Origin: Candidatus Planktophila lacus
GTDB lineage: Bacteria; Actinomycetota; Actinomycetes; Nanopelagicales; Nanopelagicaceae
DNA: 64,000 nucleotides
Reading direction: 5' to 3'
Assembly (NCBI RefSeq): GCF_002288385.1
Contig: NZ_CP016783.1
Span: 434,001-498,000, forward strand
The notes below the pieces were generated by a model. The model was not told the origin of the DNA. It searched no databases and was given only the letters and a program-made list of their open reading frames with translations. Shown piece after piece: positions 8,030 to 61,018 of the stretch. Position 1 is the stretch's first letter; each line of letters starts with the position of its first letter. Position numbers and translations under genes: made by a program.

Positions 8030-9064
8030 TTAACCCTTGAAGCCAGTTGGGATTGAACCAGCAAGAACGCCAGTTGTTGTCTTCTTCAAACGTACCTTGA
8101 CTGCTGCAGGAACTTTTGAATCCAAGTCGTGGTGTGGTGCGAGACCAACTTGACCTGTGTAGTTTCCGCCCTTGATTGTTCCGGCCTTAGCCTGACCAAC
8201 AAGTGTTGCAACTCCAAGTACTAGCTTCTTCTCTGCAGAAGTTACGAGACATGACTTTGCTTCAGGAACTGTGTAGTACTGATCGATGTCAACACCGATG
8301 CAGAGCGCGCCAGCCTTTTGGGCTACCTTGCCGATAGCACCGTTACCAGTTGATCCACCTGCACCGAAGATAACGTCGTATCCCTGTGTAAGTAGCTGGT
8401 TAGCAGTTGTTGCGCCCCATGCTGGATCTGAGAAAGCGTTATCGCCAGCTGCGTGGTAAACAACAGTTGACTTGATCTTCTTGCTGCGCTGCTTTGCTGC
8501 GTATGCAATTCCGCCTTCGTATCCTTCACCGAACTTGCGAACAGGAAGTACTTCCTTCATACCGAATACTGCGCCGACCTTATTGGTCTTTGTTAGGTAT
8601 CCAGCGAGGTAACCGGCCAAGAAGCCAGCCTTATCTTCGTCGAAGATCAAACCTGTGTAGTTAGTTTCTGTTGATGCGTTGAACTGATCAACACCGATGA
8701 ACTTGATCTTTGGATAAAGCTTTGCAGCAGCTGCTGAAGCATCACCCATCAAGAAGCCGACAGTTACGATTGCGTTGTAACCCTTGTCAGCGAAAAGTTT
8801 GATGTTCTTTGCATAATCTTTTGAATCTGTAGTTTCGATGTACTTAGCGAAACCGCCGGCTTTCTTAGCGCCTGCTACAGCGCCTTCCCATGCTGCTTGG
8901 TTGAATGACTTGTCGTCAATCTTTCCAAGGTCAGTTACGAGACCAACGCAAAATTCGCCAGCCTTACCGCAATCTGCTTCTGTTGTTGCAGCATTTGCTG
9001 GAACAATGAAGCCAACTGTTGCAAGAGCGAGTGCAGCTGTAATGGCTGAAATTCTCTTAATCAA
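8030..9064 (-). CDS. BMP-family nucleoside-binding protein
   Basis: A 344-aa exported binding protein of the BMP (basic membrane protein/PnrA) family, which binds purine nucleosides outside the membrane. The N terminus is a Sec signal (MIKRISAITAALALATVGF..ANAA) without a clear lipobox. The diagnostic LGKIDDKSFNQAAWEGA block follows, and later GAGGSTGNG and IGVDIDQY. The start is TTG, supported by AAGGAG six bases upstream (9071-9076). It is the first gene of the salvage operon. Confidence 0.92.
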   Translation of the reverse strand: MIKRISAITAALALATVGFIVPANAATTEADCGKAGEFCVGLVTDLGKIDDKSFNQAAWEGAVAGAKKAGGFAKYIETTDSKDYAKNIKLFADKGYNAIVTVGFLMGDASAAAAKLYPKIKFIGVDQFNASTETNYTGLIFDEDKAGFLAGYLAGYLTKTNKVGAVFGMKEVLPVRKFGEGYEGGIAYAAKQRSKKIKSTVVYHAAGDNAFSDPAWGATTANQLLTQGYDVIFGAGGSTGNGAIGKVAQKAGALCIGVDIDQYYTVPEAKSCLVTSAEKKLVLGVATLVGQAKAGTIKGGNYTGQVGLAPHHDLDSKVPAAVKVRLKKTTTGVLAGSIPTGFKG

Positions 9065-18232: not shown

Positions 18233-18243
18233 CCGTCCTGCGT

Positions 18244-18317
18244 ACCGCTGTAGCTCATTGGATAGAGCATCCCACTAACTACGGGAATGGTAGCGGGTTC
18301 GAACCCCGCCAGCGGTA
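18244..18317 (+). tRNA. tRNA-like gene, apparent anticodon AAC, isotype uncertain
   Basis: The cloverleaf is clear: acceptor ACCGCTG pairs with CAGCGGT, the D arm is GCTC-ATTGGATA-GAGC and the T arm is GCGGG-TTCGAAC-CCCGC. The acceptor helix extends by five further pairs outside the gene (18239-18250 with 18310-18321). The anticodon arm is poor: TCCCA against CGGGA leaves an A-C mismatch, loop CTAACTA, with T at position 37. No CCA is encoded. It could be an odd Val tRNA or a decaying copy. Confidence 0.6.
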
Positions 18318-18324
18318 CGCACAC

Positions 18325-18359
18325 CTAATGGCCACGCCGTAGTTAAGCGTGGCCATTAG
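18325..18359 (+). terminator. Hairpin downstream of the tRNA-like gene
   Basis: A perfect 13-bp stem (CTAATGGCCACGC and complement) with a 9-base loop lies 7 bases after the tRNA-like gene. The T tract after it is short (TATTTCC). Confidence 0.65.
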
Positions 18360-18406
18360 TATTTCCTAACGCACAGTAACTATTTACTTAACAACCAAAG
18401 ACCCAA

Positions 18407-21057: not shown

Positions 21058-22059
21058 ATGATGCGCATAATTCTCGTCTTTGCCTTATTTCTAACTTCTC
21101 TCATCACTTCACCTTCTGCGGTAGCGGCGCCATCGGTTGCTTCTGCCCAGCGCGATGTGAACCGACTTAGGACACTGGCTGCTGAAAAATTTGAAGCAGC
21201 CAATGAGGCAAATATTAGAATTAAGCAGCTTGAGAAAGAGAACTCTGCGCTGGTTGCCAAGGAGGCAGTTCTCAAGGAGAAGTTAAACGCCTCGAGTGAA
21301 ATTCTTGCACGAATTGCAATTGCAAATTTTCAAGGCCATGGCTTTGGTAAAACTGTTGATTTGATGTTTTCAGCAGATCCAACTCAGTATCTGTCAGATG
21401 CCTCTGTTTTGGAGATCATCACTCGTGGTTATTCCCAAGAGTTACAAGAATTCACTCGGAATAAACAGAAGGTAGAAGCATCGCGATATGTAGTCTCAGA
21501 TAAAACGGAACTCTTGAAGAGAGAAAAGTTGCGTTTAAATAAAGAGGTTGCATCCGCAAAGACTGCATTAGCAAAAGCAGAGAAAATCTTAAAGTCGTTA
21601 AAGAAAGAAGATAGAGAACGCCTGGCACGCGAAGAGGCCGAACGCGAAGATAAAATCCTCAACGACTCCAAGAAATACGCAGCCAGTTACGCTGGTGACA
21701 ATTCGCGCGGCTCAATCGCCCTTAAGTATGCGCTAAAACAAATTGGCGATATCTATGTCTGGGCCGCGGCAGGTCCAACCCGTTGGGATTGCAGTGGTTT
21801 AACGATGCGGGCATATCAAACAGCGGGAGTTTCGCTGCCTCATTCATCGCGCATTCAAGTCAAATATGGAAAACCAATTTCATATAACGCTCTCAAACCA
21901 GGTGATTTGCTCTTCTTTGGTAAGCCAATCAGCCATGTTTCGCTCTATATGGGCGGCGGAAAGATGGTCCAGGCACCACGTCCCGGAAAGCGCGTTGAAG
22001 TTGTGAAGTTAACTAAACGCTTTGGATCAAAGCCATTTGTTGGAGCAAGGCGGCTATGA
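21058..22059 (+). CDS. NlpC/P60 peptidoglycan endopeptidase with coiled coil (RipA-like)
   Basis: A 333-aa exported cell-wall hydrolase. A signal peptide (MMRIILVFALFLTSL..AVAA) is followed by a long coiled coil (about residues 27-205) and a C-terminal NlpC/P60 domain. The catalytic cysteine is in WDCSGLTMRAY and the histidine in ISHVSLYMGGG. Such enzymes cut peptide stems during division, with the coiled coil holding them inactive. The stop overlaps the start of a second, related gene (ATGA), so the pair forms one operon. Confidence 0.88.
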   Translation: MMRIILVFALFLTSLITSPSAVAAPSVASAQRDVNRLRTLAAEKFEAANEANIRIKQLEKENSALVAKEAVLKEKLNASSEILARIAIANFQGHGFGKTVDLMFSADPTQYLSDASVLEIITRGYSQELQEFTRNKQKVEASRYVVSDKTELLKREKLRLNKEVASAKTALAKAEKILKSLKKEDRERLAREEAEREDKILNDSKKYAASYAGDNSRGSIALKYALKQIGDIYVWAAAGPTRWDCSGLTMRAYQTAGVSLPHSSRIQVKYGKPISYNALKPGDLLFFGKPISHVSLYMGGGKMVQAPRPGKRVEVVKLTKRFGSKPFVGARRL

Positions 22060-22293
22060 AGTTATCCAAACGGTTTGCACTCCTTACCTTAATTGCGGCA
22101 TTCACATTCTCAAGCACTGTCACCGCTCCAATTTCGGCAACTAACCATAAGCCAACCTTGGCACAGATTGAAGCTGCTAAGAAAGCAGAACTTGCCAAGA
22201 AGAAGATCGCAGATGAAGCATTTAAAAAGTTGGCGAAGGCACGTGGAAATTTAAAGGCGCTCGTTCAATTAGCTAACGCCGCCGATGCAAAAT

Positions 22294-23185
22294 ATAAGCG
22301 CGCTAGGGCCGATCTCGCTGTCGCCGTAAATCAATCACAGCAGGCACAGGCATCATATGAAGTAGCAGTAGCCGCCGTTGCCGGTACGCATCGCGAGATC
22401 GGTAAGTTGGCGATGAATGCATATATTTCAGGCGGTGGCTTAACAGATCTCGAATCAATTCTGAGTTCTAACGGACCACAGGATGTAATAGATCGATTAT
22501 CAACTTTAGATAATTTAGGTGAGGGAAATAAAACTGCGCTAAGACGATTTAAAGTCGCTGAAGATATAGCAGAGGCGGCGAAGATTAAGGCAGAAGTTGC
22601 CAAAGCAAATCAAGCTGCAGTGACCGTCCGTGTTGCCGCGGCAAAGAAAGAGGCAGATGATGCCCGTAGCGAGCAGCAGAAAGAAGTTGATAAATTACAG
22701 GCTGTTCAAGATAAGTTGCAGCGAGATTTAGCATCAGCGAAGAAAGTTCGCATTACCTTGGAACAGAAGCGACAGTTGGCGATCTTGGAAGAAACGCGCG
22801 CTAACGAAGCTAGCAAAACCAAGACGCAGTCAAAAATTTGGAAAGGCGGAGGACCAACTGGCGTCTCCCGGATCAGGACCACGGAAGAACAACGTTTAAA
22901 GGTAGTTGAATTTGCTAAGAAACAAGTCTTAGCCGGCAAGCCATATATCTGGGGTAGTGAAGGACCAAATGCCTTTGACTGTTCTGGTCTTGTTTATGCC
23001 GCCTTTAAATCGGTTGGACTAGGTTGGCCGATTTGGGATCGCTTAAACTCAAGCCTTTATTACACCTACACAAAACAGATCCCAATTGCAGAGATGCAAC
23101 CCGGTGATCTAATTTTCTACTCATATAAGGGAACCCAAAGCACCATTCACCATATAAGTATTTACGCTGGAAATGGCATGATGTG
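22294..23185 (+). repeat. 892-bp direct tandem repeat, copy 1
   Basis: Begins ATAAGCGCGCTAGGG inside the NlpC/P60 gene and ends GGCATGATGTG. It appears identical to the following copy over its whole length. Confidence 0.95.
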
Positions 23186-24077
23186 ATAAGCGCGCTAGGG
23201 CCGATCTCGCTGTCGCCGTAAATCAATCACAGCAGGCACAGGCATCATATGAAGTAGCAGTAGCCGCCGTTGCCGGTACGCATCGCGAGATCGGTAAGTT
23301 GGCGATGAATGCATATATTTCAGGCGGTGGCTTAACAGATCTCGAATCAATTCTGAGTTCTAACGGACCACAGGATGTAATAGATCGATTATCAACTTTA
23401 GATAATTTAGGTGAGGGAAATAAAACTGCGCTAAGACGATTTAAAGTCGCTGAAGATATAGCAGAGGCGGCGAAGATTAAGGCAGAAGTTGCCAAAGCAA
23501 ATCAAGCTGCAGTGACCGTCCGTGTTGCCGCGGCAAAGAAAGAGGCAGATGATGCCCGTAGCGAGCAGCAGAAAGAAGTTGATAAATTACAGGCTGTTCA
23601 AGATAAGTTGCAGCGAGATTTAGCATCAGCGAAGAAAGTTCGCATTACCTTGGAACAGAAGCGACAGTTGGCGATCTTGGAAGAAACGCGCGCTAACGAA
23701 GCTAGCAAAACCAAGACGCAGTCAAAAATTTGGAAAGGCGGAGGACCAACTGGCGTCTCCCGGATCAGGACCACGGAAGAACAACGTTTAAAGGTAGTTG
23801 AATTTGCTAAGAAACAAGTCTTAGCCGGCAAGCCATATATCTGGGGTAGTGAAGGACCAAATGCCTTTGACTGTTCTGGTCTTGTTTATGCCGCCTTTAA
23901 ATCGGTTGGACTAGGTTGGCCGATTTGGGATCGCTTAAACTCAAGCCTTTATTACACCTACACAAAACAGATCCCAATTGCAGAGATGCAACCCGGTGAT
24001 CTAATTTTCTACTCATATAAGGGAACCCAAAGCACCATTCACCATATAAGTATTTACGCTGGAAATGGCATGATGTG
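23186..24077 (+). repeat. 892-bp direct tandem repeat, copy 2
   Basis: The second copy follows with no spacer. It is then followed by GGAAGCGCG, which shares AAGCGCG with the head of the unit, a short homology near the exchange point. Confidence 0.95.
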
Positions 24078-24162
24078 GGAAGCGCGTTCTACCAAAACTG
24101 GCCTTCGTTATTCAAATATCTATAGCGTCGAAGGCATGATGCCATATGCAGGAAGAGTTTAA

Positions 24163-27401: not shown

Positions 27402-27548
27402 ATGGGCGCTTGCGCTTGCGGATACACAACGGATCCAGAGAAGAACTGCAACGGCACTCACAATGTAGTCAAGGCTGTTAAAGCCGACATCATCGCAAAG
27501 CTCGAAGCCAGCGGCCACACAGATGCCGCGGAGTCGCTAAAAGCTAAG
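27402..27548 (+). CDS. 48-aa Cys/His protein, CDGSH-like
   Basis: ATG follows a strong AAGGAG. The N terminus reads GACACGYTTDPEKNCNGTH, a CxC...C-N-G-T-H arrangement close to the 3Cys-1His site of CDGSH proteins that holds a 2Fe-2S cluster, with Asn for Asp and an altered spacing. The rest (NVVKAVKADIIAKLEASGHT) is one amphipathic helix. Too short for most gene finders. A hairpin ends the transcript 28 bases later. Cluster binding is inferred. Confidence 0.75.
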
Positions 27549-27576
27549 TAATCTCTTTATCTTTAAAGTAAAAAGA

Positions 27577-27604
27577 AAACCCCGCCATCTCTGGCGGGGT
27601 TTTT
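27577..27604 (+). terminator. Hairpin a, AAAACCCCGCCA type
   Basis: A perfect 12-bp stem with loop TCTC and a following T run. It ends the 48-aa gene. It is the first of three similar hairpins, each followed by a tRNA-like half. Confidence 0.9.
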
Positions 27605-27606
27605 CG

Positions 27607-27642
27607 CTGTTACTCAGCAAAAGCATCCTTTTGACGAAGGGT
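27607..27642 (+). repeat. Decayed tRNA 5' half a
   Basis: GCTGTTACTCAGCAAAAGC followed by ATCCTTTTGACGAAGGG aligns with positions 6 to about 43 of the intact tRNA at 30191, including an anticodon loop with GAC. The 3' half is missing. Confidence 0.6.
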
Positions 27643-27660
27643 GATAAAGCGGTATCAGAT

Positions 27661-28737
27661 TTAGTTGGAAAATCTAATTTGGAGGTTTAATTTGATTTTA
27701 TCTACGCCCTCATCTGTATAAATAAAACCATATTTATGCTTTTTCGTGTCACCACGCTCGAAAGCTACGTTATTGAAAAGATACTCTTCAAATTTCTTTC
27801 TGTTGTACAAATAGTAAAAAACAATGTCACCATTCTTTTTCACAACAAGAATTCCGCTGAACTTAGTAGTGTCGCCATCCCATGATTTGCTAGGTCGCAA
27901 ACCCATCGCTACGGCTCCAAGAAATTCTTTTAGTTTGAAAATTGGTTGCCTTGAACCCACGGCTTCTTCTGGAAAGACATTCTGAACTGCAGCAGAGAAT
28001 GTTTTATCTCCCGTTAAATAGTATTGAAGCAGGACTTTTGCCAAATAATCAGGAAATTTCATGTCTAAAAGTGTCAAGTTTTCATAAAAATTCGGATTCG
28101 CCGTTTCCAAAAATTCAAGATGAAATCCAGCTGCATATAAAGAATTTATGTTACTAATATGTTTACCGTGCTCGAACTTTGGATAAGCTCTAGCTACATT
28201 TGGATCGTCAGGGACAATTTTATAGATGAAATTTGTAGCTCCAGAGGCATTTAAAAGAGTAGCTCTTGCACCAATTTGGGATTTTATGCTGAATCCAACT
28301 CTAGGTGTTGCTACTTGAGTGACTTGATCCTCTAAAACGAGATCCAGATCATTCTCGTGGCTGCTAGAGGCTGCACTAATTCTCGTTCTTTTCAGAAGTT
28401 GCATCAGTTCAGAACCAGTTGCCAATGCGAAAGTTTTTTTATGGGTGCCATCTGTTAATTCGTTGAGCATCAGTTCAAGAGAACGCTGTATCAGGCTGCG
28501 ATCAATATGCCCAACTTCGTTCCCACCGACCAGAATTGCGACGTCGGATGGACCAATCACATAATTTGTTTCTGGAGCATCTACGGTTTCAGCCAAGTAA
28601 ACCTGTAAGACTTTATAGAAAATCTCAGGTATAGCTGATTGTTCTTCATCAGCAGCAAATGCTCCGCCATGGACCAATAAATATCCGAGAGTATAAAGTT
28701 CGCTCCACTCACCAATATTTCCCCGTGGGTCAGGCAT
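27661..28737 (-). CDS. Type II restriction endonuclease, HpaII-like (predicted CCGG)
   Basis: A 358-aa protein, the same length as R.HpaII, with features of the RE_HpaII family: GNIGEWSELYTLGYLL at the N terminus, GFSIKSQIGARATLLNASG and TNFIYKI in the centre and KKHKYGFIY near the end. Such enzymes cut unmethylated CCGG; the recognition site is inferred from the family. Its start lies 1 base after the methyltransferase stop. The gene is visibly richer in A and T than its neighbours, which suggests transfer. Confidence 0.85.
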   Translation of the reverse strand: MPDPRGNIGEWSELYTLGYLLVHGGAFAADEEQSAIPEIFYKVLQVYLAETVDAPETNYVIGPSDVAILVGGNEVGHIDRSLIQRSLELMLNELTDGTHKKTFALATGSELMQLLKRTRISAASSSHENDLDLVLEDQVTQVATPRVGFSIKSQIGARATLLNASGATNFIYKIVPDDPNVARAYPKFEHGKHISNINSLYAAGFHLEFLETANPNFYENLTLLDMKFPDYLAKVLLQYYLTGDKTFSAAVQNVFPEEAVGSRQPIFKLKEFLGAVAMGLRPSKSWDGDTTKFSGILVVKKNGDIVFYYLYNRKKFEEYLFNNVAFERGDTKKHKYGFIYTDEGVDKIKLNLQIRFSN

Positions 28738-28738
28738 A

Positions 28739-29605
28739 TTATCCCCTGGGATTCTCTAGGGAGTAAATAATCTGTTTCGCATAATCTTGAATCGCAGAAA
28801 CCGCGACACTGTTTCCCAGTTGCTTCATTGCCGCTATATCAGAAACTGGAAATTTGAAACTTGCTGGAAATCCTTGCATTTTTAAACCTTCACGTGGAGT
28901 AAGGCGCCTGACTTTGCCATTCACGCGATACCCATCCCAGTTGCGGCGGTCATCAATTGGCGACGTTCTCCCCCCAACGCGGAGTGTGTAACCGATTTCA
29001 CGATCAACTTTCCCGTCCATCACGTCGGACATGTTGAATTTTAGTTCCCGTTTTTTTGGAAATTCAAAGACCGTATCAGGATTTCGGAATCCAACCATAA
29101 ATAGTCTTGGTCGATGTTGAGGTAATCCATGGTCTGAGGCCTTAACAATCGCATGGTGGAATGAGTAGCCGAGATCCTCCGTTAGAGTCTCTTTAATTGT
29201 TTGAAAGGTTCTTCCACCGTCATGCGAGTAAAGTCCTCGCACGTTTTCTAAGAAGAATGCCTTTGGCTTCTTTATTTTGATAATTTCGGCAATATCGAAG
29301 AATAGGGTGCCACGTGTATCTTCAAATCCCTTTTTGAAGCCTGCCTGACTAAACGGTTGGCATGGAAATCCGCCAGTTAAAATGTCAAAGTTTGGAATAA
29401 TTGATTTCTTCACTTGCGTTATGTCGCCAACAAAGTTGTTGGACTTAAACAACTTTGGAGAAATCTTCTTAAAGTTCGCCTCGTAAGTAAGCCGCGCATC
29501 CTCATCCCATTCAGATGCGAAAACGCACTCTGCGCCAGCTTTATGGAAGGCTAAATGGAAGCCGCCAATTCCAGCGAAAAGGTCGATAAATTTGTACTTA
29601 GACAA
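28739..29605 (-). CDS. DNA (cytosine-5) methyltransferase, partner of the HpaII-like nuclease
   Basis: A 288-aa C5 methyltransferase with all main motifs: FIDLFAGIGGFHLAF (I), GGFPCQPFSQ with catalytic Cys82 (IV), ENVRGL (VI), QHRPRLF (VIII) and KQLGNSVAV (X). It protects host sites from the adjacent nuclease. The TTG at 29605 is chosen because AGGAG lies five bases upstream and motif I then begins near residue 6, as is usual. A GTG at 29695, overlapping the upstream gene's stop, would add 30 residues. Confidence 0.9.
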   Translation of the reverse strand: MSKYKFIDLFAGIGGFHLAFHKAGAECVFASEWDEDARLTYEANFKKISPKLFKSNNFVGDITQVKKSIIPNFDILTGGFPCQPFSQAGFKKGFEDTRGTLFFDIAEIIKIKKPKAFFLENVRGLYSHDGGRTFQTIKETLTEDLGYSFHHAIVKASDHGLPQHRPRLFMVGFRNPDTVFEFPKKRELKFNMSDVMDGKVDREIGYTLRVGGRTSPIDDRRNWDGYRVNGKVRRLTPREGLKMQGFPASFKFPVSDIAAMKQLGNSVAVSAIQDYAKQIIYSLENPRG

Positions 29606-29694
29606 TGCTTCTCCTCTTAATGATCCGACTTTATCTGCTGACAGGGCTGAAATCTGCTCGGAAACGTTCGTTGCGTGTATTTCGGTTGAATTCA

Positions 29695-29979
29695 CTACCG
29701 ATGCTTCCCAACCTGTTTTAACTTCCGCAGCGCTTTCGGCGTGATCTTGCCACCGAAAGTTCCGCGCTTTGGTGCAGTGAGAAAGCCGATATCCATTGCA
29801 GTGCTCACGCATTCTCCGATGAATTCTTCGGGGAGGACGAGTTCGTAGGCGAGGTCGATAACGGGGATCTGTGAACCGGTGAGGACTACGCGGTTATAGA
29901 GCCAAGCGATTTCAAGGAGGTATTCCTCGCTATCGGAGTCGGGTGTAAGGGTGCGGGCGCGTTCGAGTGCGAAGTCCAT
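29695..29979 (-). CDS. Small winged-helix-like protein upstream of the methyltransferase
   Basis: A 94-aa basic protein. Residues 24-90 (LLEIAWLYNRV..IPVIDLAYEL..FIGECVSTAMDIGFLT..GGKITPKAL) read like a helix-turn-helix plus wing. It ends at the possible GTG start of the methyltransferase and begins the minus-strand cassette, so it may be its regulator, the place a C protein often holds, though it does not resemble known C proteins. The ATG has TAGATT six bases ahead. Confidence 0.6.
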   Translation of the reverse strand: MDFALERARTLTPDSDSEEYLLEIAWLYNRVVLTGSQIPVIDLAYELVLPEEFIGECVSTAMDIGFLTAPKRGTFGGKITPKALRKLKQVGKHR

Positions 29980-29985
29980 GTGGGG

Positions 29986-29991
29986 AATCTA
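29986..29991 (-). promoter_or_regulatory. -10 box TAGATT, promoter of the restriction-modification cassette
   Basis: On the minus strand TAGATT ends six bases before the ATG at 29979. Confidence 0.5.
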
Positions 29992-30016
29992 TGGGTGGGG
30001 TGTGACATGGGGAGAG

Positions 30017-30050
30017 AAAGCGAAAACCCCGCCATTGCTGACGGGGTTTT
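30017..30050. repeat. 34-bp direct repeat with hairpin b
   Basis: Identical to 30332-30365. It contains AAAACCCCG pairing with CGGGGTTTT (30023-30031 and 30042-30050), a terminator-like hairpin. Confidence 0.9.
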
Positions 30051-30052
30051 CT

Positions 30053-30086
30053 GCTGTGCTCTTAAGAGCACCTCTATGACGAAGTA
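30053..30086 (+). repeat. Decayed tRNA 5' half b
   Basis: It follows hairpin b. AGAGCACCTCTATGACGAAG (30065-30084) is identical to 20 bases of the intact tRNA (30211-30230). The 3' half is missing. Confidence 0.8.
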
Positions 30087-30190
30087 GTAAAAGGATATCA
30101 AAAAGTTCTTAATTCTATTCTCGAAGTTATACACAGTTAAGAGATTAAAAAATTTGACTCAGCCAGATGGCATTTAAGTTGCGCATGTGT

Positions 30191-30267
30191 CTGGCTGTAG
30201 CTCAGCGGATAGAGCACCTCTATGACGAAGAGGACGGTCGTGGGTTCGAATCCCGCCAGCCAGACCA
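30191..30267 (+). tRNA. tRNA-Val (anticodon GAC)
   Basis: A complete cloverleaf: acceptor CTGGCTG/CAGCCAG, D arm GCTC-AGCGGATA-GAGC, anticodon stem CCTCT/AGAGG with loop ATGACGA, T arm GTGGG-TTCGAAT-CCCGC, discriminator A and encoded CCA. The anticodon GAC (30224-30226) gives valine. Position 1 is C and the variable region has six bases, both slightly unusual for tRNA-Val, so charging is inferred from the anticodon only. Confidence 0.85.
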
Positions 30268-30274
30268 CACATTA

Positions 30275-30314
30275 GAGGCCCTGGGATTTCGTCACCCGGG
30301 GCTTCTTTGTTTTT
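30275..30314 (+). terminator. Terminator of the tRNA
   Basis: GAGGCCCTGGG pairs with CCCGGGGCTTC (one G-T and one T-G pair), followed by TTTGTTTTT. The loop and 3' arm closely match the terminator after the mycoredoxin gene. Confidence 0.85.
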
Positions 30315-30331
30315 ATTTGAAGTTATGTGGA

Positions 30332-30365
30332 AAAGCGAAAACCCCGCCATTGCTGACGGGGTTTT
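30332..30365. repeat. 34-bp direct repeat with hairpin c
   Basis: Identical to 30017-30050. The two copies bracket the intact tRNA. Confidence 0.9.
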
Positions 30366-30367
30366 TC

Positions 30368-30404
30368 GTTGTAGCTGCGGATAGAGCGCCTTCTGACGTA
30401 GTGC
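30368..30404 (+). repeat. Decayed tRNA 5' half c
   Basis: GTTGTAGCTGCGGATAGAGC followed by GCCTTCTGACGTAGTGC aligns with the 5' half of the intact tRNA, with small deletions; GCGGATAGAGC is identical. No 3' half follows. Confidence 0.75.
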
Positions 30405-30439
30405 ATTTACTTTAACAAACATTTATCAGTGTGCGCCAG

Positions 30440-30445
30440 TACTCT
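30440..30445 (+). promoter_or_regulatory. -10 box TACTCT, leaderless start
   Basis: TACTCT ends six bases before the ATG at 30452. Confidence 0.5.
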
Positions 30446-30451
30446 TAGGGC

Positions 30452-30691
30452 ATGTCATTTGTTATGTATTCAACTAGCTGGTGTGGTTACTGTAAGCGTT
30501 TGAAATCTCAATTAGGTGAACTCGGAGTTACTTTTGAAGAGATCAACATTGAGGAAGTACCGGGAACGGCTGAGATCGTTGAGAAGGTAAATGGTGGCAA
30601 TCGCACGGTGCCGACTTTGGTTTTCTCAGATGGAAGTGCGATGACCAATCCTTCGGCTAAAGAAGTTGTTGCGAAGTTGGCATCGCTTTAA
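30452..30691 (+). CDS. Mycoredoxin / glutaredoxin-like protein
   Basis: A 79-aa thioredoxin-fold protein. The active site is WCGYC (Cys11 and Cys14), followed by KRLKSQL; TVPTLVFSDG holds the cis-proline. Size and motif match actinobacterial mycoredoxin-1, which reduces mycothiol-protein mixed disulfides. A general glutaredoxin role cannot be excluded. It is single and probably leaderless, with its own terminator. Confidence 0.9.
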   Translation: MSFVMYSTSWCGYCKRLKSQLGELGVTFEEINIEEVPGTAEIVEKVNGGNRTVPTLVFSDGSAMTNPSAKEVVAKLASL

Positions 30692-59892: not shown

Positions 59893-60912
59893 ATGACCAC
59901 ACTTACATCACCACATGACCTACTTGCCGCAATCCCTTTTCTTATCGGTTATCACCCGGAAGATTCGTTAGTTGTTGTCTCGATTAAAGATAACGCTGTC
60001 GGAATGGCGATGCGGATTGATTATCCAGTTGATATTCCCGAAGGTGCTTACGACTTATTGGCTTCACATCTACAGCGAGATTTGGCAACTGGGGCGCTGT
60101 TGGTTGCTTATGTTCCAAGCGATCGCAGCGATGGGGAAGTTGTTCTTGCCGATGCAAGTGCGGCGTTAACCCGAATTGGTATTGCTACTGATGAATCTCT
60201 GCTCATCCAAGGCGGGCGTTATCGCTCTGTTCTATGTCAGGATCAAGGTTGTTGCCCTGCTGAAGGAAACTTAATTCCCGAGATCGATGGTTCGCGTATT
60301 GCCGTTGAACATGTTGTTGCAGGTCGTGCGATGCCCTTTGCCAATCTGCAAGCGCTCACTGATTCAATTTCATCGCTGCCGGTAGCAACGGAGGCTAAAT
60401 GGTGCGAAATGGTGGACAGCTTTGCGATCCCTAAAGTTCTAGATAACTTGCCGAAGTTACAACGCGATGGCGCAGCTGCGGTAATTGATTTAGCAGGTGA
60501 ATTTGCCAGTGGACGCATTGGCCAAGATCTCGAACTGACCGCAAGAGTTATCGGTCGGTTAAGGGATATTCAGGTGCGCGACTTTGCACTGGGCAGCCAT
60601 GATGAAGAGAACGTTGATACCTACTTTCAGATGTGGCGCCACCTAATGCGGATCGCACCAAAGGGTTACGTGGCACCGATCGCATCGTTGTGTGCAGCCT
60701 TGGCGTATGAAAGCGGTGATGGCGCACTTGCCCATCGCGCGCTAGATCGCGCCCTCGAAGATGCCAATGGTTATTCCCTGGCGCTCTTATTGCGCCGCGT
60801 CTTTACAGCAGGGTGGCCACCCGCATCCTTTGCGGCGATGCGCAGAGAACTACATCCCAAAGTCTGCGCTGGAATTTTTGGGTTAGACTTGCCTCCAGGT
60901 CACGAGCTCTAA
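59893..60912 (+). CDS. DUF4192 protein
   Basis: A 339-aa soluble protein of the actinobacterial DUF4192 family: TSPHDLLAAIPFLIGYHPEDSLVVVSI at the start, SVLCQDQGCCPAEG and a helical C-terminal half. Function unknown. ATG 59893 with GAGAG upstream is preferred over an earlier frame that overlaps the PKD gene. Its last codons overlap the SAM-IV riboswitch. Confidence 0.88.
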   Translation: MTTLTSPHDLLAAIPFLIGYHPEDSLVVVSIKDNAVGMAMRIDYPVDIPEGAYDLLASHLQRDLATGALLVAYVPSDRSDGEVVLADASAALTRIGIATDESLLIQGGRYRSVLCQDQGCCPAEGNLIPEIDGSRIAVEHVVAGRAMPFANLQALTDSISSLPVATEAKWCEMVDSFAIPKVLDNLPKLQRDGAAAVIDLAGEFASGRIGQDLELTARVIGRLRDIQVRDFALGSHDEENVDTYFQMWRHLMRIAPKGYVAPIASLCAALAYESGDGALAHRALDRALEDANGYSLALLLRRVFTAGWPPASFAAMRRELHPKVCAGIFGLDLPPGHEL

Positions 60913-61004
60913 TCGATAGCCCCGGCTGATTAGACGGCAACCCTCCACCGCGGTGGGGTGCTCCGGGTGACGACCAGGTTTGCATCACACGATGTGAGCA
61001 AGTG
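60898..61004 (+). promoter_or_regulatory. SAM-IV riboswitch
   Basis: GGTCACGAG (inside the DUF4192 end) begins the aptamer; GCCCCGGCTG, CGGCAACCCTCCACCGCGGT, GGGGTGCTCCGGGTGACGACC follow, matching the SAM-IV core in order. A hairpin TTGC-TCACA/TGTGA-GCAA with the GAAGGA ribosome site just after it forms the likely expression switch. It should shut off metX when SAM is high. Confidence 0.9.
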
Positions 61005-61018
61005 CGTGAAGGAATTAA

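Follow-up and report, generated by a model that had tools for sequence, protein, structure and literature searches.

A 64-kb stretch of the genome of Candidatus Planktophila lacus contains a restriction-modification cassette, a tRNA-like gene, and three copies of a hairpin followed by one half of a tRNA. This stretch is termed the window, and all coordinates are positions within it; the genome to which it belongs (G000) consists of 1,410,107 bases in one contig. The original prediction, made from the letters alone, described three hairpin-plus-half sites sharing one plan and one orientation, and these lie at 27570-27639 (copy a), 30017-30086 (copy b), and 30332-30404 (copy c). As had also been noticed, the hairpin blocks of copies b (30017-30050) and c (30332-30365) share 34 identical bp, and the 20-mer AGAGCACCTCTATGACGAAG occurs both in half b and in the tRNA-like gene (30065-30084 and 30211-30230). 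When the flanks of that gene were compared with its 5' half, the best local scores were 40 upstream and 37 downstream, far above the maxima of 21 and 20 reached in 60 mononucleotide shuffles, and chance is therefore an unlikely source of the likeness. The halves were said to stop after the anticodon arm; beyond that arm, the stretch runs on into a putative minus-strand promoter. With module c as the query, only copies a, b, and c are found in the 1.41-Mb genome (E ≤ 1e-3).

These features are interpreted here, with a probability of about three in four, as parts of a divergent RNA-RNA module in which the three halves would be opposite-strand genes for small antisense RNAs directed against a tRNA-shaped noncoding RNA. 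Comparative sequence evidence supports the cloverleaf, its terminator, the cognate pairing of the two RNAs, the promoter motifs, and the covariation of the loops. The genomes compared include G068 and G121, the sister genomes for the window region; the genus is Candidatus Planktophila and the family is the Nanopelagicaceae.

Cloverleaf units were located with a search model, R1, among whose building sequences is the 30-kb unit of the window. Tallies of R1 matches over all genomes are meaningless because ordinary tRNAs also match R1 (the genome's own tRNA-Arg(ACG) scores 69.2 bits), and matches in the genus were counted at 83 bits or more. The structural alignment, A1, holds 34 of 36 sequences and excludes L056, which is cut by a contig end, and L060, which is nearly identical to L054; rows skipped in assembling the aligned set were L071 (an ordinary tRNA from another family) and one row of L066 that was unfit for the anchor. 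The set used for scoring pairs comprises 62 of 96 R1 rows; the rest repeat those places from overlapping loci, except for a single place that scores 60.8 bits. Removal of one identical sequence leaves 61 units, 60 of which have at least 150 nt of upstream sequence. A half was accepted at a score of 16 or more. This threshold was reached in 44 units, but the match in L052 (score 17, distance 172) was attributed to chance and discarded, so that 43 units with a half remain.

The tRNA-shaped RNA

The gene at 30191 had been taken for an intact tRNA, and both ARAGORN (tRNA-Val(GAC), 30191-30267) and the Rfam tRNA model recognize it. It is, however, additional to a canonical tRNA-Val(GAC) gene and probably specifies a noncoding RNA. 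The genome has 40 tRNA-like matches, canonical tRNA-Val(GAC) and tRNA-Val(UAC) among them. The genes at 30191 and 18244 are extra; they have the anticodons GAC and AAC, respectively, and the D-arm GGATAGAGC of tRNA-Arg genes, and their relatives are common in the same genus. By sequence, tRNA-Arg is the probable ancestor, as both the D-arm and the T-arm are those of the genome's tRNA-Arg genes. The cloverleaf units differ from tRNA-Arg in the NAC of their anticodon loop, in a variable anticodon stem, in an outer stem usually longer than 7 bp, and in a terminator loop that matches the anticodon loop. A purine is usual at position 37 of tRNAs; the column after the anticodon holds T in 41 of the 61 units, including the 18-kb copy, and G in 20, including the 30-kb copy. 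At the units of the window, Rfam 15 has no family but tRNA above its gathering score, in a scan of the whole window and in a permissive scan of 27540-30460. Two leucine tRNAs that ARAGORN reports in the same genome, tRNA-Leu(CAA) (L035, 597433) and tRNA-Leu(UAA) (L026, 156913), are 74 and 76 nt long and are without the long variable arm usual for leucine tRNAs.

The sense RNA gene of unit 1 (30187-30313, plus strand, its start placed from the -10 element) consists of the cloverleaf at 30191-30267 and its own terminator hairpin. It corresponds to an R1 match of 121.5 bits at 30181-30313, and its predicted fold has an intact cloverleaf and the terminator. The anticodon-loop recognition sequence TGACGAA (30223-30229, plus strand; columns 43-49 of A1) is the complement of the terminator loop TTCGTCA (30288-30294, plus strand), with which it can form seven continuous Watson-Crick pairs. 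Unit 2 (18240-18364, plus strand) gives an R1 match of 128.7 bits at 18234-18364 and is predicted to fold with a long continuous outer stem and a terminator; ARAGORN calls its cloverleaf tRNA-Val(AAC), at 18244-18318. Its loop TAACTAC (18276-18282, plus strand) complements the terminator loop GTAGTTA (18339-18345) through eight continuous Watson-Crick pairs, one flanking base included.

The structure tested in the 34 units of A1 comprises a cloverleaf whose outer stem is extended, the terminator hairpin directly behind it, and the contact between the anticodon loop and the terminator loop. Over 42 tested pairs, 92.1% of cells are paired, compared with 80.2% after shuffling, and 28 pairs have changes on both sides. 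The covariation score is 0.392, versus 0.172 for shuffled alignments and at most 0.097 for slid versions, and the loop-loop helix, taken by itself, reaches 91.2% pairing, three of its six pairs having changed on both sides. Across the 61 units, the terminator loop forms a mean run of 4.87 pairs with its own anticodon loop and 3.94 when partners are permuted (maximum 4.46 of 10,000); because the units share descent and some are nearly identical, the counts from this and the later permutations are not exact probabilities. At least two more continuous pairs lie beyond the 7-bp stem in 57 of 61 units, and five or six in 39. The anticodon loop is of the YUNR form in 43 of 61 units, and the tRNA-elbow positions of the D-loop and T-loop are conserved in A1. 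The cloverleaves of Ca. Planktophila and its relatives form one family of probable noncoding RNAs, defined on sequence by a tRNA body, an outer stem usually longer than 7 bp, a variable anticodon arm, a -10 element of their own, and a terminator whose loop complements the anticodon loop and changes together with it.

A putative -10 element, TAAGTT, lies at 30175-30180 (plus strand) in front of unit 1, where the predicted start coincides with the foot of the outer stem, and TAGGTT (18227, plus strand) would be the -10 element of unit 2. The same start is predicted for the family because, in 54 of 61 units, the pattern TAnnnT begins at -7 or -6 relative to the model start. Upstream of this promoter in unit 1 lies TTATACACA (30127-30135, plus strand), a DnaA-box-like motif; TTATCCACA-like sequences upstream of the cloverleaf are putative DnaA sites. 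The exact pattern TTRTMCACA, which resembles a DnaA box, occurs upstream of 31 of 61 units, compared with a mean of 0.22 after shuffling. A looser form, TnnTMCACA, is present in 36 units, at 51-55 nt upstream of the model start in 35 and at 72 nt in one, and has no match in the other 25, the 18-kb unit included. A palindrome-like motif, GTnACTCTnnGTnAC, also recurs by eye upstream of the L126, L150, L198, and L215 units and downstream of several Planktophila units; motifs of this form could be the operator of a regulator.

The putative antisense halves and their predicted pairing

Each half reads best, and most likely, as a minus-strand gene for an antisense RNA with its seed at the predicted 5' end and the GC hairpin as its terminator. 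Two features point to this strand: an extended -10 element and a bias in the tracts beside the hairpin. The minus-strand image of TGnTAnnnT lies by the seed in 37 of 43 units (mononucleotide-shuffled mean, 2.2; maximum, 6), and none occurs on the plus strand of the same stretch in these 43 units. It sits 8 to 36 nt past the seed, and since the distance is 15 or 16 nt in 26 of the 37, the antisense RNA would begin at the seed. A terminator acting leftward predicts a better A-tract to the left of the hairpin, which becomes the U-tract of the minus strand. The left A-tract exceeds the right T-tract in 27 units, the reverse holds in 5, and 11 are ties, in a set of 43 that includes L046, L121, L123, and L081 12391, where the hairpin pick seems wrong. 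In 42 of the 44 units with a scored half, 77-113 nt separate the half from the cloverleaf's model start downstream of it, and a repeat family of terminator plus tRNA half, one of the three earlier readings, is right as a description. The reading offered as more speculative, that the halves are expressed in a regulatory role, has become the best supported, with the change that they would be read from the other strand, as antisense RNAs.

In the window, antisense RNA b (30017-30085, minus strand, start placed from its -10) would carry a 5' seed complementary to the anticodon arm of the cloverleaf, followed by the GC-hairpin terminator. Its extended -10 element, TGATATCCT, is an exact match at 30092-30100 (minus strand), 15 nt from the seed, and its predicted duplex is worth -53.6 kcal/mol with the 30-kb cloverleaf and -35.7 with the 18-kb cloverleaf. 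Antisense RNA c (30332-30402, minus strand) lies downstream of the cloverleaf without a second cloverleaf beside it and occupies the same place in G068; its extended -10 element, TGTTAAAGT, is likewise exact (30409-30417, minus strand) and 15 nt from the seed. Antisense RNA a (27570-27640, minus strand) is a lone copy at the left end of a strain-variable segment. The -10 image nearest to it (27649-27657) has one mismatch and is 17 nt from the seed. Copy a is not at this place in G068 or G121, and among the matches listed for the left gene in other genomes of the genus, none runs on into it.

The predicted pairing favours each unit's own half. In the 60 units with upstream sequence, the anticodon arm scores a mean of 21.35 against its own upstream half, compared with a permuted mean of 12.9 and a maximum of 14.8 of 10,000, and the own half beats every paralog from the same genome in 15 of 15 comparisons. 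Predicted duplex energies in the 43 units average -43.7 for own partners and -31.1 for permuted ones (minimum, -33.7 of 10,000), and the own cloverleaf is the predicted lowest-energy partner of 29 of the 43 antisense RNAs. The longest exact seed match is 7-20 nt (median, 12); the longest identity spans anticodon-loop positions 44-46 in 36 of 43 units and elsewhere falls mostly near the D arm. In G026, three half-cloverleaf units stand in tandem, and each half matches its own cloverleaf. Tandem antisense-like seeds, two behind one hairpin, occur in L080 (about 8190-8310) and in L062 (near 1113); such paired seeds suggest a stepwise replacement of the seed.

The paired region changes quickly between sister genomes. 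In the two orthologous units of G000 and G068, the anticodon arm and variable loop are identical at 17 of 30 and 18 of 29 positions (57% and 62%), compared with 28 of 29 and 27 of 28 (96-97%) for the acceptor 5' strand and D arm, and the genes adjoining the units are 95-98% identical. In the 18-kb unit, the promoter is 98% identical and the terminator differs at one of 46 positions (45/46 identical); comparison of the two sequences places this sole change in the terminator loop, where it re-forms the pair altered in the anticodon loop.

Distribution and genomic neighbourhood

Among 135 genomes of the genus, 69 have at least one unit at 83 bits or more, giving 112 units, of which 8 fall at 83-90 bits, and 1-4 units per genome among the matches listed. 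The remaining 66 genomes have no unit at this threshold, and many of these are incomplete; G123, G124, G040, and G065 are also without one at 83 bits or more, though they are single contigs that are at least 99% complete. Copies may be missed, as the R1 candidates scored per genome numbered 25 in the genus search and 11 in the class search, with strict filters. In the 296 genomes searched class-wide, matches of at least 90 bits occur in the same family only, among the matches listed, and the layout of the unit is the same in other genera of the family; up to seven R1 matches are listed in one genome, G242. Outside the family, G392 (84.9 bits), G274 (83.9), G368 (83.8), and G270 (83.7) have R1 matches that may be tRNAs or units. 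A pattern scan of named genomes returned 90 stretches (80 listed), most with titles of actinobacterial metagenome assemblies and a few with titles that look misassigned. When 22 of the 80 listed loci were tested with R1, two Hainich records and one groundwater record, of unassigned family, shared the layout and scored 90.7-97.5 bits; one Arthrobacter and one gammaproteobacterial record, at 73.6 and 78.5 bits, respectively, are not counted.

Where the genome is a single contig of 1.3-1.5 Mb, as in G000, the units are located in that contig. Scans of viral contigs, limited to exact patterns, found neither the cloverleaf nor the hairpin-half pattern. A BLAST search of phages gave 256 records, 176 of them from Mycobacterium phages, and the 20 listed comprise 11 on annotated tRNAs, 1 on a terminator, and 8 on unannotated stretches. 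A phage origin was rejected on the two empty exact-pattern scans and these 20 of the 256 phage records. The nearest downstream open reading frame (ORF), called mechanically, has the same orientation as the unit in 24 of 50 units, the opposite orientation in 25, and is missing in one, and control of a downstream gene by an attenuator or T-box was rejected on this count; the Rfam scans of the window gave no T-box match. The ORFs within 2.5 kb of 44 listed units (31 loci) contain no widespread neighbour cluster. The commonest cluster touches 9 of the 31 loci, and a dedicated protein partner was rejected. No Rep-like gene was recognized among the 22 neighbour clusters listed, most of them not run against Pfam.

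The cassette between copies a and b is HpaII-like, as had been proposed: an endonuclease (27661-28737; PF09561, E 1.2e-71) is followed by a C5 methylase (PF00145, E 7.5e-85) whose longest ORF is 28739-29812. It occupies a strain-variable segment (27552-29694) that is replaced by other genes in G068 and G121 and is not part of the RNA module; the methylase ORF extends past the right edge of this segment. Both sister genomes have a different insertion here, with no half at the left edge. The insertion in G068 (L073, 12353-15397) encodes a Schlafen-group-3 helicase (PF09848), a MazG-like protein whose match is below threshold, and a protein of 282 aa that matches no Pfam family, with a further minus-strand gene at the left end, and G121 has the same proteins; by their sequence, the genes of the G068 insertion are possibly defence genes. 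Elsewhere in the window, a secreted-protein gene, presumably one resembling NlpC/P60 proteins, contains a tandem duplication (22056-24162; ORFs 22056-23186 and 23299-24162) that includes the identical minus-strand ORFs 22331-22603 and 23223-23495, and both parts map to overlapping stretches of one copy in G068. A SAM-IV riboswitch is found at 60898-61010 (98.7 bits).

Proposed function and comparison with known systems

In the proposed mechanism, in which transcription itself, the way control runs, and what the tRNA-shaped RNA finally does are inferred, an RNA of about 125 nt would run rightward from its own promoter to its own terminator, and the terminator loop can pair with the anticodon loop. 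An RNA of about 70 nt would run leftward, beginning with a seed complementary to the anticodon arm of the same RNA and ending at the GC hairpin. This seed would bind the U-turn (YUNR-type) anticodon loop and the stem strand of the cognate cloverleaf, displacing the terminator-loop contact, and the cloverleaf would then probably be inactivated or marked for cleavage. Quick divergence of the anticodon arm would keep each pair specific, apart from paralogs. The cloverleaf may act on translation or on tRNA-binding proteins, and our preferred guess is that the free form is a toxic or regulatory tRNA mimic, in view of the conserved elbow, the patchy occurrence and duplication of the modules, and a layout that resembles loci of the tisB/istR type.

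Several observations weigh against this interpretation. The 18-kb cloverleaf is among 17 of 60 units without an accepted half; its own-half score of 13 is at chance level, and no antisense gene was found upstream of it. An antisense partner is therefore not obligatory. Runs between the terminator loop and the anticodon loop reach no more than three continuous pairs in 14 of 61 units, and in L117 (G121) an anticodon loop like that of G000 is mismatched with a terminator loop like that of G068. The predicted duplex of antisense RNA c is hardly stronger with the cloverleaf (-45.0) than with the tRNA-Arg genes (-43.0 for CCG, -42.1, and -39.9). Divergence between G000 and G068 also reaches other parts of the units: the T arm and 3' strand of the 18-kb unit are identical at 19 of 24 positions, and in the 30-kb unit the figures are 61 of 92 (66%) for the stretch from half to cloverleaf, 33 of 52 for half b, and 38 of 46 (83%) for the terminator. 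Because the spacer and terminator of the 30-kb unit have changed too, rapid divergence has its centre in the anticodon arm but extends beyond it. Finally, NCCA follows a 7-bp stem in 6 of 61 units, the 30-kb copy included, which makes a charged tRNA possible for this subclass.

In one rival explanation, the cloverleaf would be a working extra tRNA-Val and the halves would be decaying, functionless partial duplicates. The ARAGORN and Rfam calls, the conserved elbow, and the NCCA of the 30-kb copy fit this explanation, which is nevertheless improbable: canonical tRNA-Val(GAC) and tRNA-Val(UAC) are already present, 55 of 61 units have no NCCA, T follows the anticodon in 41 of 61, and about half of the genus genomes (66 of 135, many incomplete) have no unit at 83 bits or more. 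Moreover, decay would keep neither a 5' anticodon strand matched to an arm that changes between sisters nor a minus-strand promoter. Less credible still is the proposal of an integration or recombination hot spot built on the tRNA, in which an integrase would act at the anticodon region and the halves would be attachment-site remnants around the cassette. Cassette content does differ between G000 and G068, and half b has a core in common with the tRNA-like gene. However, the edges of the segment, 27552 and 29694, do not fall at the halves, and the attachment-site reading was rejected for this reason: copy a falls within the left end of the segment, b stands about 320 bp beyond its right edge, and neither G068 nor G121 has a left half. 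Pfam scans of 13 proteins (8 window proteins, 3 of the 4 larger ORFs in the G068 insertion, and 2 methylases from other loci) revealed no integrase, and nothing lies between half and cloverleaf in the tandem units of G026. No empty site was found, only G068 and G121 having kept both flanking genes within the stretches examined, and related genomes carry halves without this cassette, the kind of outcome that the original prediction had named as its refutation.

Two further explanations are special cases of the antisense interpretation. The cloverleaf may, tentatively, be the toxic tRNA mimic of an RNA-only toxin-antitoxin or addiction system, with the antisense RNA as its antidote. The divergent layout and short pairing, as at tisB/istR-1, favour this, as do the patchy distribution (69 of 135 genus genomes, 1-4 copies), the own-matched tandem copies of G026, and the lone antisense RNAs a and c; units without an antisense gene, such as the 18-kb one, are apparently tolerated, which argues against a strict form. 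More doubtful is a regulatory RNA of replication or the cell cycle, in which DnaA would act at the upstream box and the antisense RNA would tune the level as in plasmid copy control. The exact motif upstream of 31 units and the near-constant position of the looser one (35 of 36) are consistent with it, but 25 units, the 18-kb one among them, have no match, the genes downstream are not constant, and the clusters listed show no recurring Rep-like partner. In the broadest form of the addiction idea, which is possible rather than probable, a tRNA would have been recruited as the sense RNA of a control or addiction system made only of RNA, in which the partners are mutually specific. Its anticodon arm would serve as a fast-changing code that a dedicated antisense RNA and the terminator loop both read, and these protein-free, toxin-antitoxin-like modules would be multiplying in streamlined freshwater actinobacteria.

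This freshwater actinobacterial group is abundant, and its genomes are known for streamlining. A probable noncoding RNA family of freshwater bacteria may hide in lists of tRNAs, since ARAGORN calls these genes tRNA-Val. With about forty cognate RNA pairs, the units are natural material for work on the diversification of antisense specificity, and they provide a testable candidate for an RNA-only toxin-antitoxin or regulatory system in streamlined genomes.

The closest parallels in layout are the type I toxin-antitoxin loci of Escherichia coli. Two papers describe tisB/istR-1, shoB-ohsC, zor-orz, and dinQ-agrB as divergent loci with a non-overlapping antisense gene beside its target and pairing away from the start site, and draw the dinQ locus with both agrA and agrB (PMC4147584, PMC5668327). 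The 43 units similarly have a putative divergent antisense gene with short complementarity to its neighbour. Type I systems target the mRNA of a small toxic protein, whereas the putative target in these units is tRNA-shaped and, as judged by fold and covariation, structured. In plasmid copy control, antisense loops diverge and yet stay matched. ColE1 RNA I/RNA II-type control resembles the present module in recognition through loops with a YUNR U-turn, a motif known to help antisense systems recognize loops (PMC4485353). Unlike ColE1, the module is chromosomal, its antisense gene lies upstream of the target rather than opposite to it, and no plasmid replication gene is among the neighbours listed. 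CreTA combines an RNA antitoxin, CreA, that guides a CRISPR effector with an RNA toxin, CreT, that sequesters a tRNA by its codons (PMC8501985); it is alike in setting an RNA antitoxin against an RNA that touches tRNA biology and differs in the roles of CreA and CreT. A limited search of open full texts found, among the titles and abstract openings listed, no description of a tRNA-shaped RNA that combines a conserved elbow and a rapidly diverging anticodon arm with a cognate antisense partner that follows the change, and the suggestion of a new kind is made because neither Rfam 15 nor this literature, of limited coverage, has a match. Control by antisense RNA is in itself familiar, but none of the known systems considered above pairs a tRNA-shaped RNA with a cognate antisense RNA that diverges along with it, and such a pair is apparently undescribed.

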